Shown: piece by piece, positions 6,115 through 20,980 of the stretch
Layout: the number at the start of each line of letters is the position of its first letter
Numbering within the stretch: the stretch's first letter is position 1
Source: a virus
Direction: 5' to 3' (one strand)
Virus record (IMG/VR): IMGVR_UViG_3300005613_000483
Coordinates: 1 to 20,980 of that record
Length of the DNA stretch: 20,980 nt
Translations under genes and position numbers: made by a program
Notes under the pieces: model-generated
The model's input: the letters and a program-made list of their open reading frames with translations, nothing else
The model's database searches: none
Told to the model about the DNA's origin: nothing

Positions 6115-7116
6115 TTATAGTCCTAATGGACAACTATTCTTATTTAATTTTAGTTTTTTTCTAAAGGATGTAAACTTTCTTGACCTGTTCCATATATAAT
6201 ATATATCTTTTGTTTTTGTTATTGGTATTGCCCATTCATTTGGATTAGCAAAACTGCAAGGCATCATTTTCATATCTGGAGTTATATATGCTGACATTCT
6301 AGCTCCCTCACAAGTATCAATACACATCTTTTGTATTTTTTCAGGTTCAGTATAATCTAAAACATGATTAACCAAACAACTATCAATACCAACCTTGAAT
6401 TTGGATTTTGGTTGAAAGATTAGATCAGCAAATACAGAGAACTCATAAGAACTAGGAATAAGCTCTATTAAATCTTTTCCAGCACCTGCTGCTTTAAATA
6501 AAAGAAAAATAACAGCATTAAGTTTATTAATATCAACTAAAGATTGTTTCTTTTTTTTCCATGGATTATGACCATGTAAGATTTTAGTACATTTTCCAAA
6601 TGTTGTTCTATTAAAAATAAGGTGTATGTTTGTCTTCACTCCACCTTTTATAAATTTGTCTATTGCGTTATAAGTATATTCCTGATCATAGTCACTAACT
6701 GCAACAGCACCACACATTTTTGAGATTTCAACATGTTCGTCAGTTAGCCCAATCCCACTTGTAGTATAATTAGGAATTACCCCATTCATTCTGGAATATT
6801 CAACAATTTCTTTGAAATTTTCATGATGGTTGGGATCACCTCTACCTCCAAGAGCAACTTGATTTGTATGATGTTTAACTTGGTCAATAATTTTTTTATA
6901 ATCTTCTAGTTTCATATTTGGTTTATTAATATGACCTTGATAGCAAAAATAACATTTATGTTTACAAGTACCCATTACTCCAATATCTATGAGCGAAGGC
7001 AATTCTAAAGAAAATGGATCCGGCTTTCCATTAATACCTCTAAGCAGTTCCATACCGGTTAAACTATTGAAATATAATTCATAATCTTCATTTTTAAAAG
7101 ATTTGTTAAAGATCAT
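6115..7116 (-). CDS. Radical SAM enzyme
   Basis: This 333-residue enzyme should bind a [4Fe-4S] cluster and S-adenosylmethionine and start radical chemistry. The cluster motif is C51-x3-C55-x2-C58 (CKHKCYFC). GGRGDP (90-95) sits where the GGE motif contacting SAM is expected, and the following strands (PNYTTSG, GAVAVSDYD, KTNIHLIFN) fit a TIM barrel. The C-terminal part carries C265, C269, C287 and C329 with a GARMSAYITPDMKMMPC block, like a reduced SPASM/Twitch auxiliary-cluster region, but the protein ends four residues after C329 (SCPLGL), so a full SPASM domain is not present. Its ATG overlaps the previous stop (ATGA), and its stop overlaps the next gene's ribosome site, so translation is coupled on both sides. 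Substrate unknown. Confidence 0.9.
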   Translation of the reverse strand: MIFNKSFKNEDYELYFNSLTGMELLRGINGKPDPFSLELPSLIDIGVMGTCKHKCYFCYQGHINKPNMKLEDYKKIIDQVKHHTNQVALGGRGDPNHHENFKEIVEYSRMNGVIPNYTTSGIGLTDEHVEISKMCGAVAVSDYDQEYTYNAIDKFIKGGVKTNIHLIFNRTTFGKCTKILHGHNPWKKKKQSLVDINKLNAVIFLLFKAAGAGKDLIELIPSSYEFSVFADLIFQPKSKFKVGIDSCLVNHVLDYTEPEKIQKMCIDTCEGARMSAYITPDMKMMPCSFANPNEWAIPITKTKDIYYIWNRSRKFTSFRKKLKLNKNSCPLGL

Positions 7117-8148: not shown

Positions 8149-8877
8149 ATGGGCGTAAAGAATTCGTTTGCCGAGCTTATTGGTGATCACAATATTTTGA
8201 CAAGAAAGTTCGGAGGAACAACAATTGGTGTTGCTGATCCGTATGTAACTGGTTATCATTTTATTGTGTTCGATAAACTTCCGCCAGGGTTACCAGAATA
8301 TACCAAACTTGGAGTTAGTGGTCTTAGTGAAAGAGGACAAATACAAGATGTTCTCTCAGCATCATGCTTATCTGTAACACCACCGGGTGGAACTTTAAAT
8401 AAAGTTGAATTTACTGGACTTGGTGGAGTAAAGTGGGCTGTACCTGGAAGTGTTGATTATGGCAATACTGTTTCTGTCAAATTTTTAGAATTTAATAGAA
8501 CTCCAATTCTTGATATTATGCATTCTTGGGTAAAGTTAATTAGGGATTATAGAACTGGTATTACTGATTTAACAGATGGTGACGATGGAGCTGGATATAC
8601 AAAAGCCACATATGCTGGACTAATGTATTATTGGACAACAGCACCTGATGCTAAAACAGTAGAATATTATGCCTGCTATGATGGCGTGTTTCCAGCAAAA
8701 GATCCACAAGATTTATTTACCAGTGATGTTGAAACTATTGGACGATTAGATCTAGAAATTGAATTTAATGTGGATTATGCATGGCATGAACAATGGGTTA
8801 AAACTAAATGTGAAGTTTTTGCCTCTAGATTTGCTGATGCTGCAGATGTAGTTAAAGCTTATGGTCCAGCAAACTAA
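8149..8877 (+). CDS. Tail tube protein (gp19-like)
   Basis: This 242-residue protein starts 8 bases after AGGAGG. Tube subunits stack into hexameric rings forming the DNA channel inside the sheath. The sequence is beta-rich and lacks enzyme motifs. Features typical of myovirus tube proteins are an early PYVTGYHFIVFDKLPPGLPE stretch, SGLSERGQIQDVL, GGVKWAVPGSVDYGNTVSVKF, a middle helix TPILDIMHSWVKLIRDYRTG, and a late segment ETIGRLDLEIEFNVDYAW. T4 gp19 is 163 residues, so this is a longer version. It is followed by hub and baseplate genes, as expected for a tube gene, but is 3.7 kb from its sheath partner. The family call rests on pattern and context, not on a search. Confidence 0.75.
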   Translation: MGVKNSFAELIGDHNILTRKFGGTTIGVADPYVTGYHFIVFDKLPPGLPEYTKLGVSGLSERGQIQDVLSASCLSVTPPGGTLNKVEFTGLGGVKWAVPGSVDYGNTVSVKFLEFNRTPILDIMHSWVKLIRDYRTGITDLTDGDDGAGYTKATYAGLMYYWTTAPDAKTVEYYACYDGVFPAKDPQDLFTSDVETIGRLDLEIEFNVDYAWHEQWVKTKCEVFASRFADAADVVKAYGPAN

Positions 8878-8897: not shown

Positions 8898-9395
8898 ATG
8901 TTATCAAAAAATTATCTTAAAGTTGTTTCTGCTTCTATAGTATATGAATCTAAACTTTCTAGAATTGCTAAGATTCAGTTACTTAAATTTATTGAGAATG
9001 AAGCGTCTAAATCTCAGCTAAAGATCCTTATATTAGATGGAGAAGTGAGAAAGGTATCTGAAGATGAAAAAGATTTAGATAAAAGATTTGTATCTGAAAT
9101 AGTTCCTGCCATTTTAATTGCTATGTTAATTCCAGCAGCTATGATGGCTGCAAAAAAAGCATATATAAATATTTTTAGTCAGGCTGCTAAAGCGTGTTCT
9201 AATAAAAAGGGAAAAGAAAGAACAAATTGTATGAAAGATTTTAGGATAAAAGCTAATTACGCTAAACTTGCAGCACTCAAAAGAGAAATGGCTAAATGTA
9301 ATCAGACTGCAAATACAGATAAGTGCAGACGAGTATTTACTGATCACATGCGAAATATTCAAAAACAAATTAGAAAAGATCAATTAGGAAGATAA
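8898..9395 (+). CDS. Cys-module protein A (hydrophobic segment plus stapled helices)
   Basis: This 165-residue protein starts 8 bases after a GAGG. Residues 1-60 are paralogous to the next gene (QLLKFIENEASKSQLKILIL against QLINFVANEASEAQIMAFLL). Residues 67-85 are hydrophobic (IVPAILIAMLIPAAMM) and could insert in a membrane. The rest is a basic helical region with C100, C111, C134 and C143. Aligned to the large protein at 11290, it keeps the inner cysteines (x10 apart) and the CX8C pair, while both outer cysteines are replaced (Ala96, Phe115); the x18 spacing from position 115 to C134 is kept exactly. This suggests paired disulfides, one pair of which was lost. The protein is located among baseplate genes. 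No known family comes to mind. Confidence 0.75.
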   Translation: MLSKNYLKVVSASIVYESKLSRIAKIQLLKFIENEASKSQLKILILDGEVRKVSEDEKDLDKRFVSEIVPAILIAMLIPAAMMAAKKAYINIFSQAAKACSNKKGKERTNCMKDFRIKANYAKLAALKREMAKCNQTANTDKCRRVFTDHMRNIQKQIRKDQLGR

Positions 9396-9415
9396 TTAAA
9401 ACGGAGGAAATTAAA

Positions 9416-9811
9416 ATGTCAGCAATATTAAAGACATTCGCTGCTTATGCAATTAAGGAAATGAAAATTTCCAAGACAGGTAAGAAACAATTAATTAATT
9501 TTGTAGCGAACGAAGCATCTGAAGCACAGATTATGGCGTTTCTCCTAGATGGTAAAATTGTTCATTTAGATGAGCATGCTGAGCAAATTGTTAAAGATCG
9601 CTTCCAGGCAAATACTAAATTGCATGAAGCTATGACAAGCAAGCAAAAACATTTTCTAACAGTTGGGGTTGCCAATTTGTTTGATCAATGCGCTAAAAAA
9701 TGTGGAACAATTGCTATAAGTGCAAAGAAGAGAGAATGTCTAAAAACTTGTAGAGCTAAAGCAGATGCTGCAATTCGCCAAGCTAAAATGAAAGCAAAAG
9801 CAAAAAAATAA
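9416..9811 (+). CDS. Cys-module protein B (twin CX3C)
   Basis: This 131-residue protein has GGAGG 8 bases before its ATG. The N-terminal half matches protein A (NEASEAQIMAFLLDG against NEASKSQLKILILDG). After a moderately hydrophobic stretch (KQKHFLTVGVANLF, 77-89) comes a twin CX3C hairpin: C92-x3-C96-x11-C108-x3-C112. The end is Ala/Lys-rich (RQAKMKAKAKK) and stops 19 residues after C112, so the CX8C part of the module is absent. The protein is basic and helical. Twin CX3C hairpins are known from small Tim chaperones of mitochondria, where outer and inner cysteines pair; whether this is more than convergence is unknown. The gene order (tube, A, B, gp26-like) suggests a tail-assembly or virion role. 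Confidence 0.75.
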   Translation: MSAILKTFAAYAIKEMKISKTGKKQLINFVANEASEAQIMAFLLDGKIVHLDEHAEQIVKDRFQANTKLHEAMTSKQKHFLTVGVANLFDQCAKKCGTIAISAKKRECLKTCRAKADAAIRQAKMKAKAKK

Positions 9812-9858
9812 TTTTTAGAAAAACTAATAAAGAAGTATAAGAAAGGAGATAGACTAAG

Positions 9859-10650
9859 ATGACGTTTAAAGGATTTAATCTGGAATATCCGGAATATGAA
9901 GTAATCACACCCCAAACAAAACATTCGTTTACTGTAAGATCTTTGAATGTTCAAGAAGAAGAGAAACTAAAAGGGAGTTTAGTTACTCCAACTAAAATTG
10001 CTGACCATTTAAATTCGTGCATTTTTGATTCAGTAGTTAAAAAACCAGAGGGTATTGACTCTCTTGATTCTTTTGTTCGTTCATTAACATTGAAAGATAG
10101 AGATGCTTTATTATATGGTCTTTTTCATATTACATATGAAGAGATTAGAAATTATCAAGTTAAATGCACAGCATGCGGTAACGAATACCCTATTACCGTA
10201 CAAGCTTCTAGTACATTTAATTTTCAGGCTTATCCAGGTAAGAATATATTAACTGATAGAATAGATGTACCTCTTCCAGTGTCTAAAGGAGTAACTGCAG
10301 TAGTTAAACAACCAACTTTATTTGATGAGATTTCTGCTCTGAAAGAACTCGGTAATAGACCAGGAAGCACTATAGAGTTAATAACTGAAACACTCATTAT
10401 TGATAGATTTACTCAAGATTTAGAAGATAAAAAAGAAGCAGCAGTTTATAAAGATAGAATTGATATTATTGATGCTTATCTTACATTAGCCGCCAGAGAT
10501 AAAAGGGTTATTTATAGCGAGTATGAAAAGGCTTTTGGTAATTATGGCATCGAACTGAAAATGAAAAGTTACTGTCCTTCTTGTAGTAATGAAGATGTTT
10601 TTGACATTGACTTGGTGGAAAACTTTTTTCGTTCATTGTACTCAGCATGA
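9859..10650 (+). CDS. gp26-like baseplate hub/tail assembly protein
   Basis: This 263-residue protein starts after AAGGAG about 11 bases upstream. It fits the T4 baseplate hub family (PF12322, T4 gp26): an N-terminal beta segment (EYEVITPQTKHSFTVRSLNV), a helical stretch (DRDALLYGLFHITYEEI), and two CxxC knuckles, C103-x2-C106 (CTACGNEYPITV) and C239-x2-C242 (CPSCSNED), probably sharing one zinc. The C-terminal DIDLVENFFRSLY is also typical as I remember the family. In T4 gp26 is needed for hub assembly but is not firmly placed in the mature baseplate, so a chaperone role is plausible. The last 62 bases overlap a second reading frame with no good start of its own, suggesting a frameshifted extension. 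Confidence 0.68.
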   Translation: MTFKGFNLEYPEYEVITPQTKHSFTVRSLNVQEEEKLKGSLVTPTKIADHLNSCIFDSVVKKPEGIDSLDSFVRSLTLKDRDALLYGLFHITYEEIRNYQVKCTACGNEYPITVQASSTFNFQAYPGKNILTDRIDVPLPVSKGVTAVVKQPTLFDEISALKELGNRPGSTIELITETLIIDRFTQDLEDKKEAAVYKDRIDIIDAYLTLAARDKRVIYSEYEKAFGNYGIELKMKSYCPSCSNEDVFDIDLVENFFRSLYSA

Positions 10651-10828
10651 GGGGATTAATGAGTATCGAGATAATCTTTCTGAAAATATTTTTGCTTGTA
10701 TGGAATTAAGTGGGCAATCATATACTGATACTATATTGATGCCTGTCAAAAAATTACAAGACTACCTCAAATGGAAATCTCAATTAGAGGAAGAAAAACA
10801 AAAGAGGATTCAAGAGGATACTAATTAG
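10589..10828 (+). CDS. Small overlapping frame, possible frameshift extension of the gp26-like protein
   Basis: This frame is open from 10565 to the stop at 10826-10828 and overlaps the end of the gp26-like gene in the +1 (equivalently -2) frame. ATGs at 10589 and 10595 have no ribosome site. The only strong site, GAGGGG at 10649-10654, feeds an ATG at 10659 in a third frame that stops after 16 codons. The 59 residues after the gp26-like stop look like real protein: NEYRDNLSENIFACMELSGQ, then MPVKKLQDYLKWKSQLEEEK, with an acidic, helical, amphipathic pattern. In T4 the small gene 51 follows gene 26, so this may be its counterpart. Expression could be by frameshifting, by translational coupling, or from an ATG at 10700. 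The start given is uncertain. Confidence 0.55.
   Translation: MKMFLTLTWWKTFFVHCTQHEGINEYRDNLSENIFACMELSGQSYTDTILMPVKKLQDYLKWKSQLEEEKQKRIQEDTN
10624..10630 (+). other. Candidate slippery site TTTTTTC
   Basis: In the gp26-like frame the codons are AAC TTT TTT CGT. A +1 slip of the second Phe tRNA (TTT to TTC) or a -2 slip (TTT to TTT) both enter the overlapping frame with good pairing. The site lies 18 bases before the gp26-like stop codon. No downstream stimulator was identified. Confidence 0.3.
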
Positions 10829-10829
10829 T

Positions 10830-11270
10830 ATGACTAACTTATTAGAAAGATTTAATCAAACCGTTGCTGGGTCAGACTCGAAACTAGCTGACTATCTCTC
10901 AAAAATATCGCCTTCTGGAGATTTTAAACGGATAAAAAATATTGAAGTAATTCTTAATTCTTGGAATAATATTCTTATAACTCCAAGAAGAAGCTATCAA
11001 TATGATCCTGAGTATGGTAGCGATCTTTATAAGATGGTTTTTGATCCAGCTGATGATCAAACTATCAGAAAGATCAAAGATGAATTGGCAGTAACACTTC
11101 AAAGATATGATGATCGTGCAACCATTGAAGATGTTGAGGTAACTTTTTTAACTAATTTAAAGGGATTTAATGTTGCTGTTGATGTAGGATATCAAGGTGA
11201 AAGTGGTCAATTATCAATTGTTGTTGACGAATCCGTATATTTTAAATTTTTTGAAGTTCCTACAGCTTAA
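10830..11270 (+). CDS. gp25-like baseplate wedge protein
   Basis: This 146-residue protein belongs to the GPW/gp25 family (PF04965), a baseplate wedge component that helps nucleate the sheath. The central region carries the family signature: IEVILNSWNNILITPRRSYQ (38-57), then DPEYGSDLYKMVFDP, and a helix (TIRKIKDELAVTLQRYDDRA) before the edge strand TIEDVEVTF. The length matches the family (T4 gp25 is 132 residues). The ATG lies one base after the previous stop; an AGAGG is about 12 bases upstream, so translation is probably coupled to the small overlapping frame before it. Despite old reports of lysozyme activity for gp25, no lysozyme motif is present. Confidence 0.88.
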   Translation: MTNLLERFNQTVAGSDSKLADYLSKISPSGDFKRIKNIEVILNSWNNILITPRRSYQYDPEYGSDLYKMVFDPADDQTIRKIKDELAVTLQRYDDRATIEDVEVTFLTNLKGFNVAVDVGYQGESGQLSIVVDESVYFKFFEVPTA

Positions 11271-11289
11271 CTAAAAGAGGTATTTAAAA

Positions 11290-12480
11290 ATGATTACGCA
11301 AAAAGATCGAGACATTTTAAAGGAAATTGGAATTAAACAGCTTTTAGATATTGTGTTGGACAGTAAAATAATCAAAGAACAGCTTACATTTAAAGAGCAT
11401 ATTGATTTCTGTAAATTTGTTATGAATCTTACGTATGAAGAAGTTATCACTCTAGTAGTCACTGAAGATATAAAAGATTTTGAAAGTAAGTTTAAGAAGT
11501 TTTTAAAATATGGATTTGCAGCAATTGCAGGACTTGCCATTGCTGTTTCTGGACCTGTTGGTTGGGCTGGTGCAGCAGTAGCTCCACCACTTGCTATGTT
11601 TGTATTATATATCTTTAGAAAACTAACAGATACATGTTCAAGATCATGCATAAATAAATTCCCAATGTCTACTGAAAGAAAAATTTGCAGATATGAATGT
11701 CAAGTCACTGCAACTCGTCGTATTGTTAATGACCTTAGATCAGAAATGACAAAATGTGGTCAATTTGCAAACCCTCAGGCATGTGAGAAAAAACTAAGAA
11801 AAGAATATGTTAAATGGAGTAGAAGATTACAACAACAAATAATTAAATTACGTTCAGCTCAACTTGGAAGAGAAGAAAAAAGAAGAAAGAAACGACAGAA
11901 AGAATTATCAAAAAGAGCTAAAGCTTTAGCAGCTAGTTATCATATTCCTCAATCACAGATAGTTAAATTAGTTAGTGAAAGTAGTGATATTAGAAATTCT
12001 CTAACTTTTAGAAAACATATTAAATTATATAATGCCGTGTCTTCAATATCTGAGGAAGACCCGGGATTAATAGTTAAACCCCCAAAAATTGATCCAAATA
12101 TGGAAAAAAAAGTTCGTACAGCTCTTTACTTAGGATTATGGGTTTTACCGGTTCCATTCTTTAATGATATTGTCAATTATATAATTAAAAAATATAATTT
12201 TTCGTGTGTTAGTAAGTGTGTATCTCAAAGGAAATTTAGTAGGAGATTGTGTTACCATCAATGTAGTTATTTGTCTGCTAGATATGCCGTAAGTATTTTA
12301 AATAAGCAATTGCCTCTTTGTAATAAAGCTAAGAAACCAGTTAGTTGTAAGAAAAAAGTTTTCAAAATGCTTGAAGACTGGAAGCAAAGAGAAGTGGAAG
12401 CTAAGATTAAATTTGAAGCTACCTTAAAAGATGAGATAACAAAAGCTAAACAAAGAAATATACAGGGTGCTAAAAAATAA
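11290..12480 (+). CDS. Cys-module protein C, internally duplicated
   Basis: This 396-residue protein has AGAGG 8 bases before the ATG. It is built of two similar halves, about residues 10-190 and 210-375. Each has a helical N-part with a shared block (LTFKEHIDF at 32-40, LTFRKHIKL at 238-246), a hydrophobic segment (76-109, with AAIAGLAIAVSGPVGWAG; 278-299, with LYLGLWVLPVPF) and a six-cysteine module. Module 1 is C116, C120, C133, C137, C156, C165; module 2 is C306, C310, C321, C325, C344, C353. In both, C4 to C5 is exactly x18 and C5 to C6 exactly x8. The linker 195-212 is very basic (EEKRRKKRQKELSKRAK). The gene lies between gp25-like and gp6-like baseplate genes. A disulfide- or metal-stabilised, possibly membrane-inserting virion protein is a reasonable inference; no known family is recognised. 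Confidence 0.75.
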   Translation: MITQKDRDILKEIGIKQLLDIVLDSKIIKEQLTFKEHIDFCKFVMNLTYEEVITLVVTEDIKDFESKFKKFLKYGFAAIAGLAIAVSGPVGWAGAAVAPPLAMFVLYIFRKLTDTCSRSCINKFPMSTERKICRYECQVTATRRIVNDLRSEMTKCGQFANPQACEKKLRKEYVKWSRRLQQQIIKLRSAQLGREEKRRKKRQKELSKRAKALAASYHIPQSQIVKLVSESSDIRNSLTFRKHIKLYNAVSSISEEDPGLIVKPPKIDPNMEKKVRTALYLGLWVLPVPFFNDIVNYIIKKYNFSCVSKCVSQRKFSRRLCYHQCSYLSARYAVSILNKQLPLCNKAKKPVSCKKKVFKMLEDWKQREVEAKIKFEATLKDEITKAKQRNIQGAKK

Positions 12481-13161: not shown

Positions 13162-15630
13162 ATGTCTGATATATTATCAAGTCAAATTTATCTTTCTCGA
13201 GATTCTATTAGAGAGCAGATAAGTAATGAAATAAAAGAATATTTAGAACTTGAAAATGTGGATCTAACGAAATCATCATTTCTTAGTTTCTTAGTTGATA
13301 CCATTTCTACATTAACTGGAAACTTATTATTCTATCAACTATCAGCTTATCGAGAATTTTTTCTTACAAAGGCTCAATTGCCCGAGTCGATTTTAAATCT
13401 TTCCCCTTTTTTAGGATATAATACTAGAGAAGCTACCCCTGCGACAGTTAATGTTTTAATGACAATTCCATTCGGATTTGATGATCCATTAAGTCAATTT
13501 TCAATTCCGGAAGGATTTCAATTTAATGCAGATAATGAAATTATATTTCGCACTTATTATACCACAACAGTCGAAGTTACAAATAATGCGACTGTTAAAA
13601 TTCAAGTTGTTGAGGATAATAAAAAATTTAATTTACCCGTTGATGTTGGTACTGATTCATTTAGTTTTGTATTACCTTTAAGACAACTTTCAGAAGTAGA
13701 ACAGGAATTTCAAATTGATAGTGATATACAACAATTTCAATTTGTTACATTAGATGTACCAATAGAAGGAGAGGTGTCATCTTTAGAAGTAAACGTTCAA
13801 GAACCTGGTAGTTCAGCACTTACTTTATGGACTGAATTTAATAGTCTTTTTTTAATGAGTAATATTGATAAAGGGTATGTATCAAGAAGAACAGATACAG
13901 GAAGAAAATTAACATTTGGTAATGGACTAATTGGAGTTCAACCAACTCCTGGTTCAACAGTTTTTGTTACAAGTCTGGTTACCAACGGTGCTGAAGGAAA
14001 TGTTATTGCTGGCTCTATTAGTGATGGTGAAAGAATTTATGTACAAACTTTAGCTGGTTTAAATCAAGTAGTAAATTATGAAGTAACAAATACCTCTGCT
14101 GCGTTTGGTGGAGAAGATGAGGAATCACTTGAGGAAGTAAGAAGAAATTCAATTGCTTCATTGACAGCATTAAATAGGTTAGTCACTGGTGGTGATTATG
14201 AAAATATAGATGTGATTGTTTCTGGATCTCCCATTGCACAAAATTCTTTACCTGTTTTAAAAAGATCTGATTTACAAGTAAATGAAATTAATCTATTTAG
14301 TGGAATTTTGTTTGGTAGTGGGGCAACAGAAATTGATAACTTAGTTCCCACTAGAAATGCAGTTTTTAATTTATCTCCTGGTACTACAAAAATTTATCGA
14401 GATGATTTAATTACTATTGGAGATAGTCAATATTATAATATATTTGATATTAGTATTAATCTACTTAATACAGTGGGTGAATATGAATATATTATTTTTG
14501 AAGTTGAAGTTATCCCTGCTCTTGAAACTAGTTATGCATCTACCTTTGATATTTATACAGATAAACTTGAAGTTATAAGATCAGGAACACAAGGAATTTT
14601 TAAACTTCATTACAAATCAACAGAAAGTACTGCAGATCTGGCAAAATGCGAGATGTTGACTAAATCTAGTGGTTCAGTCAAAACTATGACAAATGACTCA
14701 ACTGGTGGGTATTTCATATATACATTTGACCCTTATACTGATATACCCTCTGGAGAGCAAACATATGAGTTTACAGTAAGTGATCCAACTAATTTTCCGG
14801 TAGCAACATATTCTAATAAAGTAACTTTTAGGCGTGATCTTAGTACATATATGAGATCAAATCTTGTTGATGCTACAACAATTATAGTTTATGATGTTCC
14901 GGTTATAGAAAAAGAATATTATGATTCAATTAATAAAAGAGATTTTGAATTAGAAGTTCTACAATTACTTATTAGTTCAATGGATTTATCTTCTAATAAA
15001 ATGTTAACTGACTTTACTAATATTAAGTTTACAAATACGTATGGTCTTTTACAGAATTTAACACTAAACGAGACTACTGTCAGCGATATTGTTGATATTG
15101 TTACAACTGTCCCAGGAACTTGTTCTGTAGGGGATAGATTTATATTCTCACCATTAAGCGGTAATGTCGAACATCAAGATAATATAATAAAGTGTATTGA
15201 TTCTACTAATATAACTTTCATTTATGAGGAAGCAACAGCAGATACTATAGCTTATGTTACAAATAAAGGAGCTAAATATATATTTTCTGAGAGAGGTTGG
15301 ATTACACTACCAGAATATACAATACCTCTTAAACTTGAAATTGAAGTATTTAGAGATGTGACATATAGTGGTACTTTAACTGACACAGTGCGTACCACTG
15401 TTTTTGAAGCTTTTCAAGATAGGTTCGGAACTAATGCTACTATATATAGATCAGAAATTATTGATGTAGTACAAGAAATAGAAGGCGTAAGTCATTGTAG
15501 ATTAAGAAAACCAGAAACTAGTATTTTCTTTAATTTTGATCTCAAAGATTTAACTGAAGAACAGCTTTTACGATATGGACCCGAATATATCTTTTTCAAA
15601 GAGGAGGATATTACTGTTAGGGTAATATAA
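13162..15630 (+). CDS. Baseplate J/gp6-like wedge protein
   Basis: This 822-residue protein starts 8 bases after AGGAG. It is a baseplate wedge subunit of the gp6/J class, which dimerises to form the inner ring around the hub. N-terminal signs are IREQISNEIKEYLELEN, a helix through LSFLVDTISTLTGNLLFYQL (41-60), and LNLSPFLGYNTREATPA (78-94), the usual start of these proteins. The family hallmark GGEDEESLEEVRRNSIASL leading into RLVTGGDYENI lies at 316-349. Residues about 410-570 look like an inserted beta-rich, Ig-like stretch (VGEYEYIIFEVEVIP, GEQTYEFTVSDP), which may explain a length above that of T4 gp6 (660). The C-terminus (LKLEIEVFRDVTYSGT, SEIIDVVQEIEGVSHCRLR) matches the family end domain. 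Confidence 0.85.
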   Translation: MSDILSSQIYLSRDSIREQISNEIKEYLELENVDLTKSSFLSFLVDTISTLTGNLLFYQLSAYREFFLTKAQLPESILNLSPFLGYNTREATPATVNVLMTIPFGFDDPLSQFSIPEGFQFNADNEIIFRTYYTTTVEVTNNATVKIQVVEDNKKFNLPVDVGTDSFSFVLPLRQLSEVEQEFQIDSDIQQFQFVTLDVPIEGEVSSLEVNVQEPGSSALTLWTEFNSLFLMSNIDKGYVSRRTDTGRKLTFGNGLIGVQPTPGSTVFVTSLVTNGAEGNVIAGSISDGERIYVQTLAGLNQVVNYEVTNTSAAFGGEDEESLEEVRRNSIASLTALNRLVTGGDYENIDVIVSGSPIAQNSLPVLKRSDLQVNEINLFSGILFGSGATEIDNLVPTRNAVFNLSPGTTKIYRDDLITIGDSQYYNIFDISINLLNTVGEYEYIIFEVEVIPALETSYASTFDIYTDKLEVIRSGTQGIFKLHYKSTESTADLAKCEMLTKSSGSVKTMTNDSTGGYFIYTFDPYTDIPSGEQTYEFTVSDPTNFPVATYSNKVTFRRDLSTYMRSNLVDATTIIVYDVPVIEKEYYDSINKRDFELEVLQLLISSMDLSSNKMLTDFTNIKFTNTYGLLQNLTLNETTVSDIVDIVTTVPGTCSVGDRFIFSPLSGNVEHQDNIIKCIDSTNITFIYEEATADTIAYVTNKGAKYIFSERGWITLPEYTIPLKLEIEVFRDVTYSGTLTDTVRTTVFEAFQDRFGTNATIYRSEIIDVVQEIEGVSHCRLRKPETSIFFNFDLKDLTEEQLLRYGPEYIFFKEEDITVRVI

Positions 15631-18013: not shown

Positions 18014-20980
18014 TTACCCAATATTACATCGAGCAACATCAGATGCTGCACCATATGCAGATGAAAATGAACCAGCAGCAGGGGCCATTCCACCTCCATT
18101 ATTTTGTGAATTTATTAAATTAGTATTGCTTGATACAATCATTTTTGTTGAATTAATTGTAGCAGTTTCATTTTTTGATGCTGTTTTATTTAGTCCATCA
18201 ATTATTTTTTGAGTTTCAGTTTCACTATGTTTGTTTTTTGATTTTTCTTTTTCAGCTTCGCCTTTAGCTATAAATTCTTTCCATCCTCTCATTTTTTCTT
18301 CTGCTTCTTTTGGTTTTAGATGGACCCATTTACCACTAACTTTTATTGCTCTTAGTTCTCCATTTATATAAACTACTTTGTCTGCAATTCCAGCTTCTTT
18401 AAAATATGATGATACACTCTTTTTTTCTGCTGCTATTGCTGCCGCTTTTGCTGCTATTGTTTCTTCTCGTGTTTTTTCTGTTGGTGGTGCTTTTTCTGTT
18501 GGTGGTTCTTTTTTCCCATATTTACCTAATTCTCTTTCAAGATCTGAAGCTAAAGTTCCTTCATGAATACCTTTAATAGCTTTTATTGCAGCAGCATATA
18601 TTGATCCAACGACCGGAATATCTCTAATTGTACTATCTATTTTTTCTCTTAACCATTTAAATATTTTCACAATTCCATTAAGAGGAAACATTACAGTCAT
18701 TAAAACATCTGTAGCTATTTTCTTTAAATCTTTCCAAATATCTTTATCAAAAAATTCTCCAATTTTATCTTTCCACCAGTTAAAACTTTCTTTAATTCTA
18801 TCAAAAACCCAGAAAACTTTATCTTTGACAAAATTAATAATTGATTGGATCCAACCTGGTTTTTCTAGCCACTCTTTAAATGCATCCCATGCCTTTCCAA
18901 TAGTCATTCTCCAAGCAAATTTGGCTAGAACCCAAGTACTTTTTATTCCCTCTTTCATTACTTTAAATGGAAAACTAACTAAACTTTTTACTCCTTTAAC
19001 CAAATCTTTAATATTTTTCTTTGATTCCTCAAGACCTTCGGTAATACGTCCTCCGCCAACAAATCCAAGAATTCCTCCTGCTATGGCTCCAATTGCACCG
19101 CCAATTGCTACTCCAATTGGCCCTCCAAACATACCAGCTGCCATTCCAAATCCACTTCCTTTCAAAACACCACGTTTAGTTCCTTCCCAACCACTCTCTT
19201 TTCCAGCTAGAAATGCTCCTATAGCAGAAGTTATTCTACCAGCAGCAAACTCTTTTGGATTTTGCGCTAAAAATAGAGCTTGTTGAATCTCATCTTTTTT
19301 AAATGCTCTAGTTTTTACAAACTCTTTAGTAAATTCATCTGGCTCTTTAGCTGCGCCAATAGCATCATAAGTAGCCATTCCAAGACTAATAATACCAGCT
19401 ATGGCACCACCTAAGAATTTCCCTCCAATACCAACTACTTTACTACCAGCACCAACTACTTTACTACCAACACCTGCTACTCTAGCCCCCGTTCCAACTC
19501 TACCAACTTGAGCAGCTCTAGTAGCAGCACCGCCTCTAGTAAATAAAGACATTTGTTTTGGTGTTTTTGCGAACTTGCCTAATTTACCTTTTGTAAATAA
19601 TGTTTTTCCAAGTTGTCCTAAACCTAATCCACCAAGCAGTGTGCTTATTGTATTACCTAGCATACTTAAACCGCTTCCTACAAAACTTTGTATGGCACCA
19701 AATAGTAACATGATCCAATCCATCATTTTACCACGTAATTTTCTTAGTCTTGTATTTACACGTTTTAAAATACCAGTTTGTTCTCTAGCATTCTTTTTTA
19801 TATCACCTAAAAATGATAGTTGTTTTTGATCTTTATTAATTTGTCTTTTAGCTTCTTTCGATGCCAAGTCAGCAGTATATGAAATATTATCTGCCATACT
19901 GGGTGAATGAGATTTTTCTCGTTCTTCTTGCTCTCCCTTCATTTTTGTTAATTTAGAAAGATTAGAAAGTGCTTGATCTGCCCACTCCGGAGGTTTTTCT
20001 CTGAATGTACCAAATATATTTTCTCTAGTTACACCCATTCTTCCAGCAATTCTTCCTGGACGTGCAAGTCCACCAAATCCAGTAATTCCAGCTTCTTCAA
20101 GACTCTTTTTATCTAACCCCAATTTTTCAGTCATAGCTTCAAACATTCTTCTCTGTAACGAAATAATAGGTCGACTCGTCATATATTCACGAATTTTCTG
20201 AAACATTGTATATTGTTCTTGACCAGGAGCTTCAACTGCTTTACCAGATAATGCCTCTGCTGTTACTTTTGTGTACTTAACAATTTCATCTAGTTTTGGC
20301 ATTCCAGTAGAATATAGTATTCCAAGCAAGTTTGATATTTTTAAGAAGGCATTATGCGTTGAAGTTGCTCCTCTAACATCAGATGCATAACCACCTCTAA
20401 GACCAAATAATGCTCTTAAAGGAGTTACAATTGCACCTCTTAAAACTTCTGAAAATAGTAACATATTTCTAAAAGCAGGATGCTGTAATAAAGTTCGTTG
20501 CCAAGCAATTCTTAATCTTGACGTCATACCAATCATAGCAACCTTAAGTTCAAGAATTGCTTTAAGTTGTCGTCTCTGATATGACTCTTGTTTTTGATCT
20601 CTGGCTTTTTGAAACTCTTCTATAAAAGTTTTAACAATACCTCTTTGAGATTTTTCTCTTTCAACAACTATAGTTTCAATACCTGCCATACGTTCAGACA
20701 TCATTCTCATTGAGGCATCTAATTTCCGAGAAATATCAGCACTTTTTGCCTCATCTATTTGCTCCAGAATTTTATCAATTGGTGTTATAACTTCTGCAGC
20801 ATGAACTTCAACTAAACCACCTTGTCTTATAAAACCACCTTCTTGTAGTTTTGGTGGTTCTTTGGTTATTCTCTTTTTAAGATCTTGTAATTCACTTAAA
20901 GTTGCATCTTCCCTTTCTTCTGCAGCAATATCTTTCCCTTTTCTAAATACGTCAGCAACTGTGCTTCCAGCTTTAGATAA
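18014..20980 (-). CDS. Tail tape measure protein, C-terminal part
   Basis: The frame is open from the window edge to the stop at 18014, at least 988 codons; an internal ATG at 20710 is not the start, because the frame runs on without a stop and encodes EGGFIRQGGLVEVHAAEVIT just upstream, a motif of the GG..H..E kind common in tape measure proteins. The protein is long and helical, with alternating charged coiled coil (from about 20700 to 19750), Gly/Ala-rich hydrophobic segments at about 19500-19370 (GVGSKVVGAGSKVVGIGG) and 19170-19050 (GPIGVAIGGAIGAIAGGILG), then a Trp/Lys-rich amphipathic region, and a Gln/Asn/Ser tail. Such proteins set tail length and can enter the host membrane during DNA delivery. 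No lytic domain is visible in this part. The next gene starts 9 bases later. Confidence 0.85.
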   Translation of the reverse strand, partial: LSKAGSTVADVFRKGKDIAAEEREDATLSELQDLKKRITKEPPKLQEGGFIRQGGLVEVHAAEVITPIDKILEQIDEAKSADISRKLDASMRMMSERMAGIETIVVEREKSQRGIVKTFIEEFQKARDQKQESYQRRQLKAILELKVAMIGMTSRLRIAWQRTLLQHPAFRNMLLFSEVLRGAIVTPLRALFGLRGGYASDVRGATSTHNAFLKISNLLGILYSTGMPKLDEIVKYTKVTAEALSGKAVEAPGQEQYTMFQKIREYMTSRPIISLQRRMFEAMTEKLGLDKKSLEEAGITGFGGLARPGRIAGRMGVTRENIFGTFREKPPEWADQALSNLSKLTKMKGEQEEREKSHSPSMADNISYTADLASKEAKRQINKDQKQLSFLGDIKKNAREQTGILKRVNTRLRKLRGKMMDWIMLLFGAIQSFVGSGLSMLGNTISTLLGGLGLGQLGKTLFTKGKLGKFAKTPKQMSLFTRGGAATRAAQVGRVGTGARVAGVGSKVVGAGSKVVGIGGKFLGGAIAGIISLGMATYDAIGAAKEPDEFTKEFVKTRAFKKDEIQQALFLAQNPKEFAAGRITSAIGAFLAGKESGWEGTKRGVLKGSGFGMAAGMFGGPIGVAIGGAIGAIAGGILGFVGGGRITEGLEESKKNIKDLVKGVKSLVSFPFKVMKEGIKSTWVLAKFAWRMTIGKAWDAFKEWLEKPGWIQSIINFVKDKVFWVFDRIKESFNWWKDKIGEFFDKDIWKDLKKIATDVLMTVMFPLNGIVKIFKWLREKIDSTIRDIPVVGSIYAAAIKAIKGIHEGTLASDLERELGKYGKKEPPTEKAPPTEKTREETIAAKAAAIAAEKKSVSSYFKEAGIADKVVYINGELRAIKVSGKWVHLKPKEAEEKMRGWKEFIAKGEAEKEKSKNKHSETETQKIIDGLNKTASKNETATINSTKMIVSSNTNLINSQNNGGGMAPAAGSFSSAYGAASDVARCNIG
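19431..19472 (-). repeat. Two tandem 21-bp units in the tape measure gene
   Basis: CCAACTACTTTACTACCAGCA (19431-19451) is followed by the same 21 bases with one change (19452-19472). On the coding strand they give GSKVVGAGSKVVG, adding turns to a Gly-rich hydrophobic segment. A third, diverged unit follows. Confidence 0.7.

Follow-up and report, generated by a model that had tools for sequence, protein, structure and literature searches.

A helical module with up to three very probable disulfide staples in paralogous proteins of a phage tail gene cluster

We analysed a window of 20,980 nucleotides that is a virus record in itself (IMG/VR record IMGVR_UViG_3300005613_000483, positions 1 to 20,980) and that carries a contractile-tail gene cluster, in which three plus-strand genes for cysteine-patterned proteins, 8898, 9416 and 11290, are interspersed among the sheath-to-wedge genes. 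The 8898 protein (8898..9395; 165 residues) consists of an N-terminal helical domain, a hydrophobic helix and a module with four cysteines, corresponding to cysteines 2, 3, 5 and 6 (C2, C3, C5 and C6) of a six-cysteine pattern. Its hydrophobic segment spans residues 64-82 (9087..9143; Kyte-Doolittle hydropathy 2.12), and the cysteine core, read from the translation, runs from C100 to C143 (9195..9326; C-x10-C-x22-C-x8-C). The 9416 protein (9416..9811; 131 residues) has the N-terminal domain and a twin CX3C hairpin with cysteines 1-4 only (C-x3-C-x11-C-x3-C; residues 92-112, 9689..9751), with no preceding hydrophobic segment. The 11290 protein (11290..12480; 396 residues) is an internal duplication of N-terminal domain, hydrophobic segment and six-cysteine module, the first module copy spanning C116-C165 (11635..11784; C-x3-C-x12-C-x3-C-x18-C-x8-C) and the second C306-C353 (12205..12348; C-x3-C-x10-C-x3-C-x18-C-x8-C). 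The spacings that a first-pass annotation of the DNA had given for both 11290 copies and for 9416 were confirmed from the translations. In 8898 the x10 inner pair and the CX8C are present as it had described, and the x18 distance is correct when counted from the missing C4. Its statement that a six-cysteine module occurs four times holds for the two 11290 copies but not for 8898 and 9416, which carry two different four-cysteine subsets.

The annotation had also held that the copies share little beyond their spacing, which proved wrong. All three proteins have a common N-terminal helical domain, with a consensus near LSKxxKIQLxNFIxNEA...DG, and residual similarity extends to the modules. The three predicted proteins are paralogous rather than unrelated proteins with a common motif. 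With all cysteines masked, 6 of 11 four-cysteine modules scored higher against the six-cysteine profile than any of 2,200 shuffles; the masked 8898 module on its own fell short of this level. Profile-profile comparison of the two module families with cysteines retained gave a probability of 96% (E-value 3e-9). When 11290 was shuffled, the six-cysteine pattern, observed twice, arose in 0 of 200,000 sequences, and the patterns of 9416 and 8898 arose in 7 and 6 of 300,000 shuffles, respectively. Chance spacing was thus ruled out by the shuffles, together with the conservation of the spacing in relatives.

Searches of viral contigs revealed relatives at more than 40 loci on more than 40 contigs, none of them in cultured phages, yielding 104 non-redundant modules. 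Six cysteines are present in 59 of these and the subset {2,3,5,6} in 37, while {1,2,3,4} and {1,4,5,6} occur three times each and {5,6} twice. One of the two {5,6} modules is probably a frameshift artefact; it comes from a near-identical contig (L002:5665-6387) in which a frameshift divides the 8898 gene and the 9416 gene is cut short, through sequencing error or decay. An odd number of cysteines was found in none of the 104 modules. Because the states {5,6}, {2,3,5,6}, {1,4,5,6} and {1,2,3,4} all occur, the sole matching left that is consistent with every state is the putative pairing 1-4, 2-3 and 5-6. State changes were counted on a tree built without the cysteine columns. C1 and C4 changed once each, C2 and C3 four times each, and C5 and C6 twice each, the partners always jointly; at least seven full-state changes were counted, with five independent pair changes on supported branches. 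If cysteines were removed at random from the six, we infer that 3 of 15 possible pairs per supported event would fit the pairing, or about 3e-4 for all five events. Sporadic cysteines in the N-terminal domain and elsewhere provide an internal contrast, as they come and go singly. Where relatives have a protein in the position of 9416, several of these carry only two cysteines, 11-16 residues apart, or none.

The distances C3-C5 (x22) and C4-C5 (x18) are invariant across modules, and length varies only between pair partners (C2-C3, x8-x20; C5-C6, x5-x11). AlphaFold models predict three helices with the cysteines at two turns, and the length changes fall across these predicted turns. In the 8898 model (predicted local distance difference test, pLDDT, 88.2) the helices span residues 60-99, 105-136 and 140-163; in the 11290 model the module helices span 101-123, 128-158 and 162-217 for copy 1, and 288-312, 318-344 and 350-395 for copy 2. 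For all cysteine pairs of 11290, and likewise for the C5-C6 pair of 8898, the deviation from a symmetric position about the turn is at most about 1.5 residues. The pairing 1-4, 2-3 and 5-6, named beforehand in the first-pass annotation, was thus supported by pairwise co-loss, by fixed helix spacing with variable loops, and by placement relative to helices and turns. Cysteines varying independently of each other in homologues, which the annotation had set down as the outcome that would speak against it, gave way to the opposite: losses are strictly pairwise. As many as three disulfides very probably hold the helical module together.

We compared the module with known cysteine-patterned helical proteins. 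In the mitochondrial small Tims (Tim8/9/10/13, zf-Tim10_DDP), disulfides 1-4 and 2-3 join a twin CX3C across two antiparallel helices, an arrangement that is predicted for the phage module as well. Tim13 was the top match in a PDB profile search at a non-significant E-value of 0.15, and zf-Tim10_DDP (PF02953) scored 9.7 bits against a cut-off of 22.3 (E-value 0.84), which is not significant. The twin CX3C is strictly conserved in small Tims, whereas 37 of the 104 modules are without C1 and C4. The phage module differs from small Tims in having a third helix and a third pair (CX8C, at a constant x18), in the frequent absence of the outer pair, and in its setting in phage tail-cluster proteins. 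Plant alpha-hairpinins (C-X3-C-Xn-C-X3-C) are likewise helix-loop-helix structures with Cys1-Cys4 and Cys2-Cys3 bonds (PMC7191063), a pairing that the phage modules would share; they are basic, with several modules in one precursor, and their motif is present in the six-cysteine copies and in 9416. A vicilin-like peptide (7uv2) was among the three best PDB profile matches at a non-significant E-value of 0.16. However, alpha-hairpinins are short secreted plant peptides without the CX8C third staple, released from a precursor with a signal peptide; the N-terminus of the phage proteins aligns as a common domain. In CHCH proteins (twin CX9C) the spacing differs: the helix pairs of the phage module are CX3C, CX8C spans a turn, and the commonest patterns have no CX9C pair. 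Small Tims and alpha-hairpinins are the closest analogues, and the module may be called hairpin-like by analogy, with no significant sequence relation.

PHROG, Pfam and NCBIfam contained no family match for the module proteins (Pfam gave only scattered weak coiled-coil matches), and tblastn against cultured phages found none. A profile search of six reference phages (phiR1-37, AR9, HTVC008M, LPJP1, P-RSM4 and MarsHill) was negative while the positive control, G003, was found. No match was confirmed on bacterial or archaeal genome contigs, and the PDB profile search gave no significant match, its three best matches, including Tim13 and the vicilin-like hairpin peptide, having E-values of 0.15-0.42. 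A fold search of PDB and viral models returned only generic helical bundles, and such a missing match is no evidence of a new fold. The predicted proteins form a real phage protein family that is absent from the libraries searched, and the data point to the module as a phage domain new to these libraries and held by disulfide staples.

Most relatives retain the order tube - cysteine protein(s) - gp26-like - gp25 - cysteine protein(s) - gp53-like - gp6, and the number, length and cysteine content of the cysteine proteins vary. In the window, the cluster includes the sheath gene 2521, and a tail tube-like gene (8149..8877, plus strand; PHROG tail tube and virion structural matches) lies directly upstream of 8898. 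Further along are a T4 gp26-like baseplate hub gene (9859..10650, plus strand; PF12322, phrog_150), whose protein has CxxC pairs of its own, a gp25-like wedge gene (10830..11270, plus strand; PF04965, phrog_261) and a gp6/baseplate-J-like wedge gene (13162..15630, plus strand; phrog_219). A gene on the opposite strand (18014-20980) encodes a large basic protein that has hydrophobic segments and is tape-measure-like by size and composition. Within the tail cluster also lies a Radical-SAM-like gene (6115-7116, minus strand; CxxxCxxC, read by eye) with 49-68% identity in relatives, and the protein at 713-1555 has a natural run of eight histidines and a zinc-ribbon-like C-terminal CxxC...CxxC. Among the relatives, a 150-kb contig has nine matches to the four-cysteine profile, and a second cluster of module proteins on it (L107:2256-6271) adjoins a papain-family cysteine protease (PF00112, E-value 2.9e-18). 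Two modules on a 223-kb contig (L011) are located at L108:5837-6799 and L109:5491-6159. One has the pattern C-x4-C-x19-C-x3-C-x18-C-x8-C and adjoins a PD-(D/E)XK-like gene (weak hint of a terminase small subunit, E-value 0.003); the other has cysteines 1, 4, 5 and 6 and adjoins an actin-like gene. An actin-like protein is encoded at L109:4448-5491 on this phage contig (Pfam Volactin, E-value 1.5e-73). Long forms on L013, L022, L033 and L103 have extended linkers between N-terminal domain and module, several of them Lys/Ala-rich and histone-H1-like.

The beta subunit of RNA polymerase was found on 7 of 9 tested module-bearing contigs. The L011, L013, L034 and L103 contigs each have two beta-subunit reading frames (about 1000 and 1365 residues), which suggests, from these frames, two multi-subunit RNA polymerases per phage. 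Metagenome 3300017989, the source of one relative, is named in the paper on mReC Caudovirales (PMC7481178), which are large uncultivated phages with a multi-subunit RNA polymerase; that paper differs in its subject, which is the polymerase and not the module proteins. Because of the beta subunits and the common source metagenome, the lineage is probably related to mReC phages.

Hydrophobic segments were scored as the 19-mer preceding the module, with a Kyte-Doolittle value of at least 1.6. This value is reached in 46% of copies, and at least 1.2 in 85%; no hydrophobic 19-mer precedes the module in some copies, including 9416 and the two non-tail copies of the 223-kb contig. A preceding hydrophobic segment, which the first-pass annotation had ascribed to all copies, is therefore common but was rejected as a universal feature. 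The module proteins are strongly basic (net charges: 8898, +18; 9416, +14; 11290, +41), as are the tape-measure-like protein (+51) and the 15633 protein (+29); sheath, tube, gp25, gp26 and gp6 are negative.

On balance we favour, with modest confidence, a reading in which the three are paralogous, basic, all-helical tail-cluster proteins with a disulfide-stapled three-helix module. The module would form a three-helix zigzag in which helix 1 has C1 and C2 at its end, helix 2 carries C3, C4 and C5, and helix 3 has C6 at its start; C2-C3 and C1-C4 would staple the first turn and C5-C6 the second, each staple being droppable singly. Most likely, the proteins would be made reduced and then built into the hub or the lumen of the tail, close to the tape-measure-like protein, which is just as basic; oxidation once the particle exits the cytoplasm would give a rigid, basic and stable bundle. 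In copies with a preceding hydrophobic helix, this bundle could rest on the envelope, or lodge within it, at the time of injection. Disulfides in tail and baseplate have a precedent in Agrobacterium phage Milano, whose contractile tail has numerous disulfides in the proteins of its sheath and baseplate (PMC10811340). That the module cysteines form actual disulfides we regard as likely; gene order slightly favours membership of the module proteins in the virion, and a membrane- or DNA-contacting role in entry is put forward only tentatively.

Several observations weigh against this reading. Independent pair losses are few (5-7), and in the 8898 model the C2-C3 pair lies about 3.5 residues off-centre from the turn. 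Conditions in the bacterial cytoplasm are normally reducing, and a search with a working control found no thioredoxin-family gene on seven related contigs, all possibly incomplete. The two modules of the 223-kb relative lie far outside the tail cluster and have no preceding hydrophobic segment; the module is therefore not tied to one machine. Finally, of 91 hydrophobic cases, 75 have the more positive flank on the module side, a topology that the positive-inside rule makes wrong for ordinary export; a module so inserted would be cytoplasmic. The membrane insertion considered in the first-pass annotation is thus not established, since hydrophobic segments are not universal and flanking charges speak against ordinary export. 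Both points weaken a simple membrane-anchor reading, not delivery from the virion.

The same charges, in favouring a cytoplasmic module, would suit assembly factors that are not virion parts, i.e. membrane-tethered or cytoplasmic helpers of the baseplate hub whose redox-sensitive staples form during only part of the cycle. The genes adjoin the gp26-like and other hub genes, and copy number and cysteine content vary freely between relatives, which is unusual for a symmetric structural part. We nevertheless consider this doubtful, as persistent selection of cystine type is hard to explain in a reducing compartment and no oxidase was found; beside the controlled thioredoxin search, an Erv/ALR search gave no match and is uninformative since its positive control was silent.

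Alternatively, the proteins may be ejected envelope proteins that travel in the virion and are released together with the DNA, their hydrophobic helices in the host membrane and their stapled modules in the oxidising periplasm. The hydrophobic 19-mers preceding many modules, the basic charge that the proteins have in common with the tape-measure-like protein and the Lys/Ala-rich linkers of long relatives agree with this. However, more than half of the copies are only borderline hydrophobic, 9416 and both non-tail copies have no such segment, and we give ejection a limited chance of being correct.

Binding of zinc, the annotation's alternative to disulfides, or of another metal would take place in the reducing cytoplasm, with the twin CX3C as a four-cysteine site of a DNA- or protein-binding element. 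It would fit the basic helices and the CxxC pairs of the gp26-like neighbour, and reduced small Tims bind one zinc via all four cysteines (PMC3759932). Yet small Tims lose zinc binding on removal of any one cysteine (PMC3759932), while cysteine loss in the phage modules is strictly pairwise. Each of {1,4}, {2,3} and {5,6} is missing from some modules, {5,6} occurs alone, and {2,3} and {5,6} lie at opposite ends of helix 2, split by 22 residues, so that these modules have no site with four cysteines, which makes metal binding improbable. Intermolecular cross-links between tail proteins are very improbable: inter-chain bonds are stressed for the Milano sheath and wedge (baseplate) proteins in the portion of that report consulted, which describes no comparable repeated helical module (PMC10811340), but fixed spacing, pairwise loss within one chain and symmetry about helix turns fit intramolecular pairs.

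Stapled tail-cluster proteins thus remain the preferred reading. As a rather unlikely extension, they could represent a class of modular entry proteins that the phage delivers: reduced while still in the producing cell, they would fold through their disulfide staples only outside the cytoplasm and place a rigid basic bundle at the host membrane. If so, these phages would increase the copy number of the module (the 150-kb contig has up to nine profile matches) as others vary their receptor proteins. Helical hairpins stapled by disulfides are known mostly from secreted plant peptides and from oxidising compartments of eukaryotes. A multi-copy version with pair-selected cysteines in a phage tail cluster, expressed in a normally reducing cytoplasm, raises the question of the time and place of bond formation. 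Should the proteins belong to the virion, they may account in part for the survival of these large tails, or for their action, at the host envelope.

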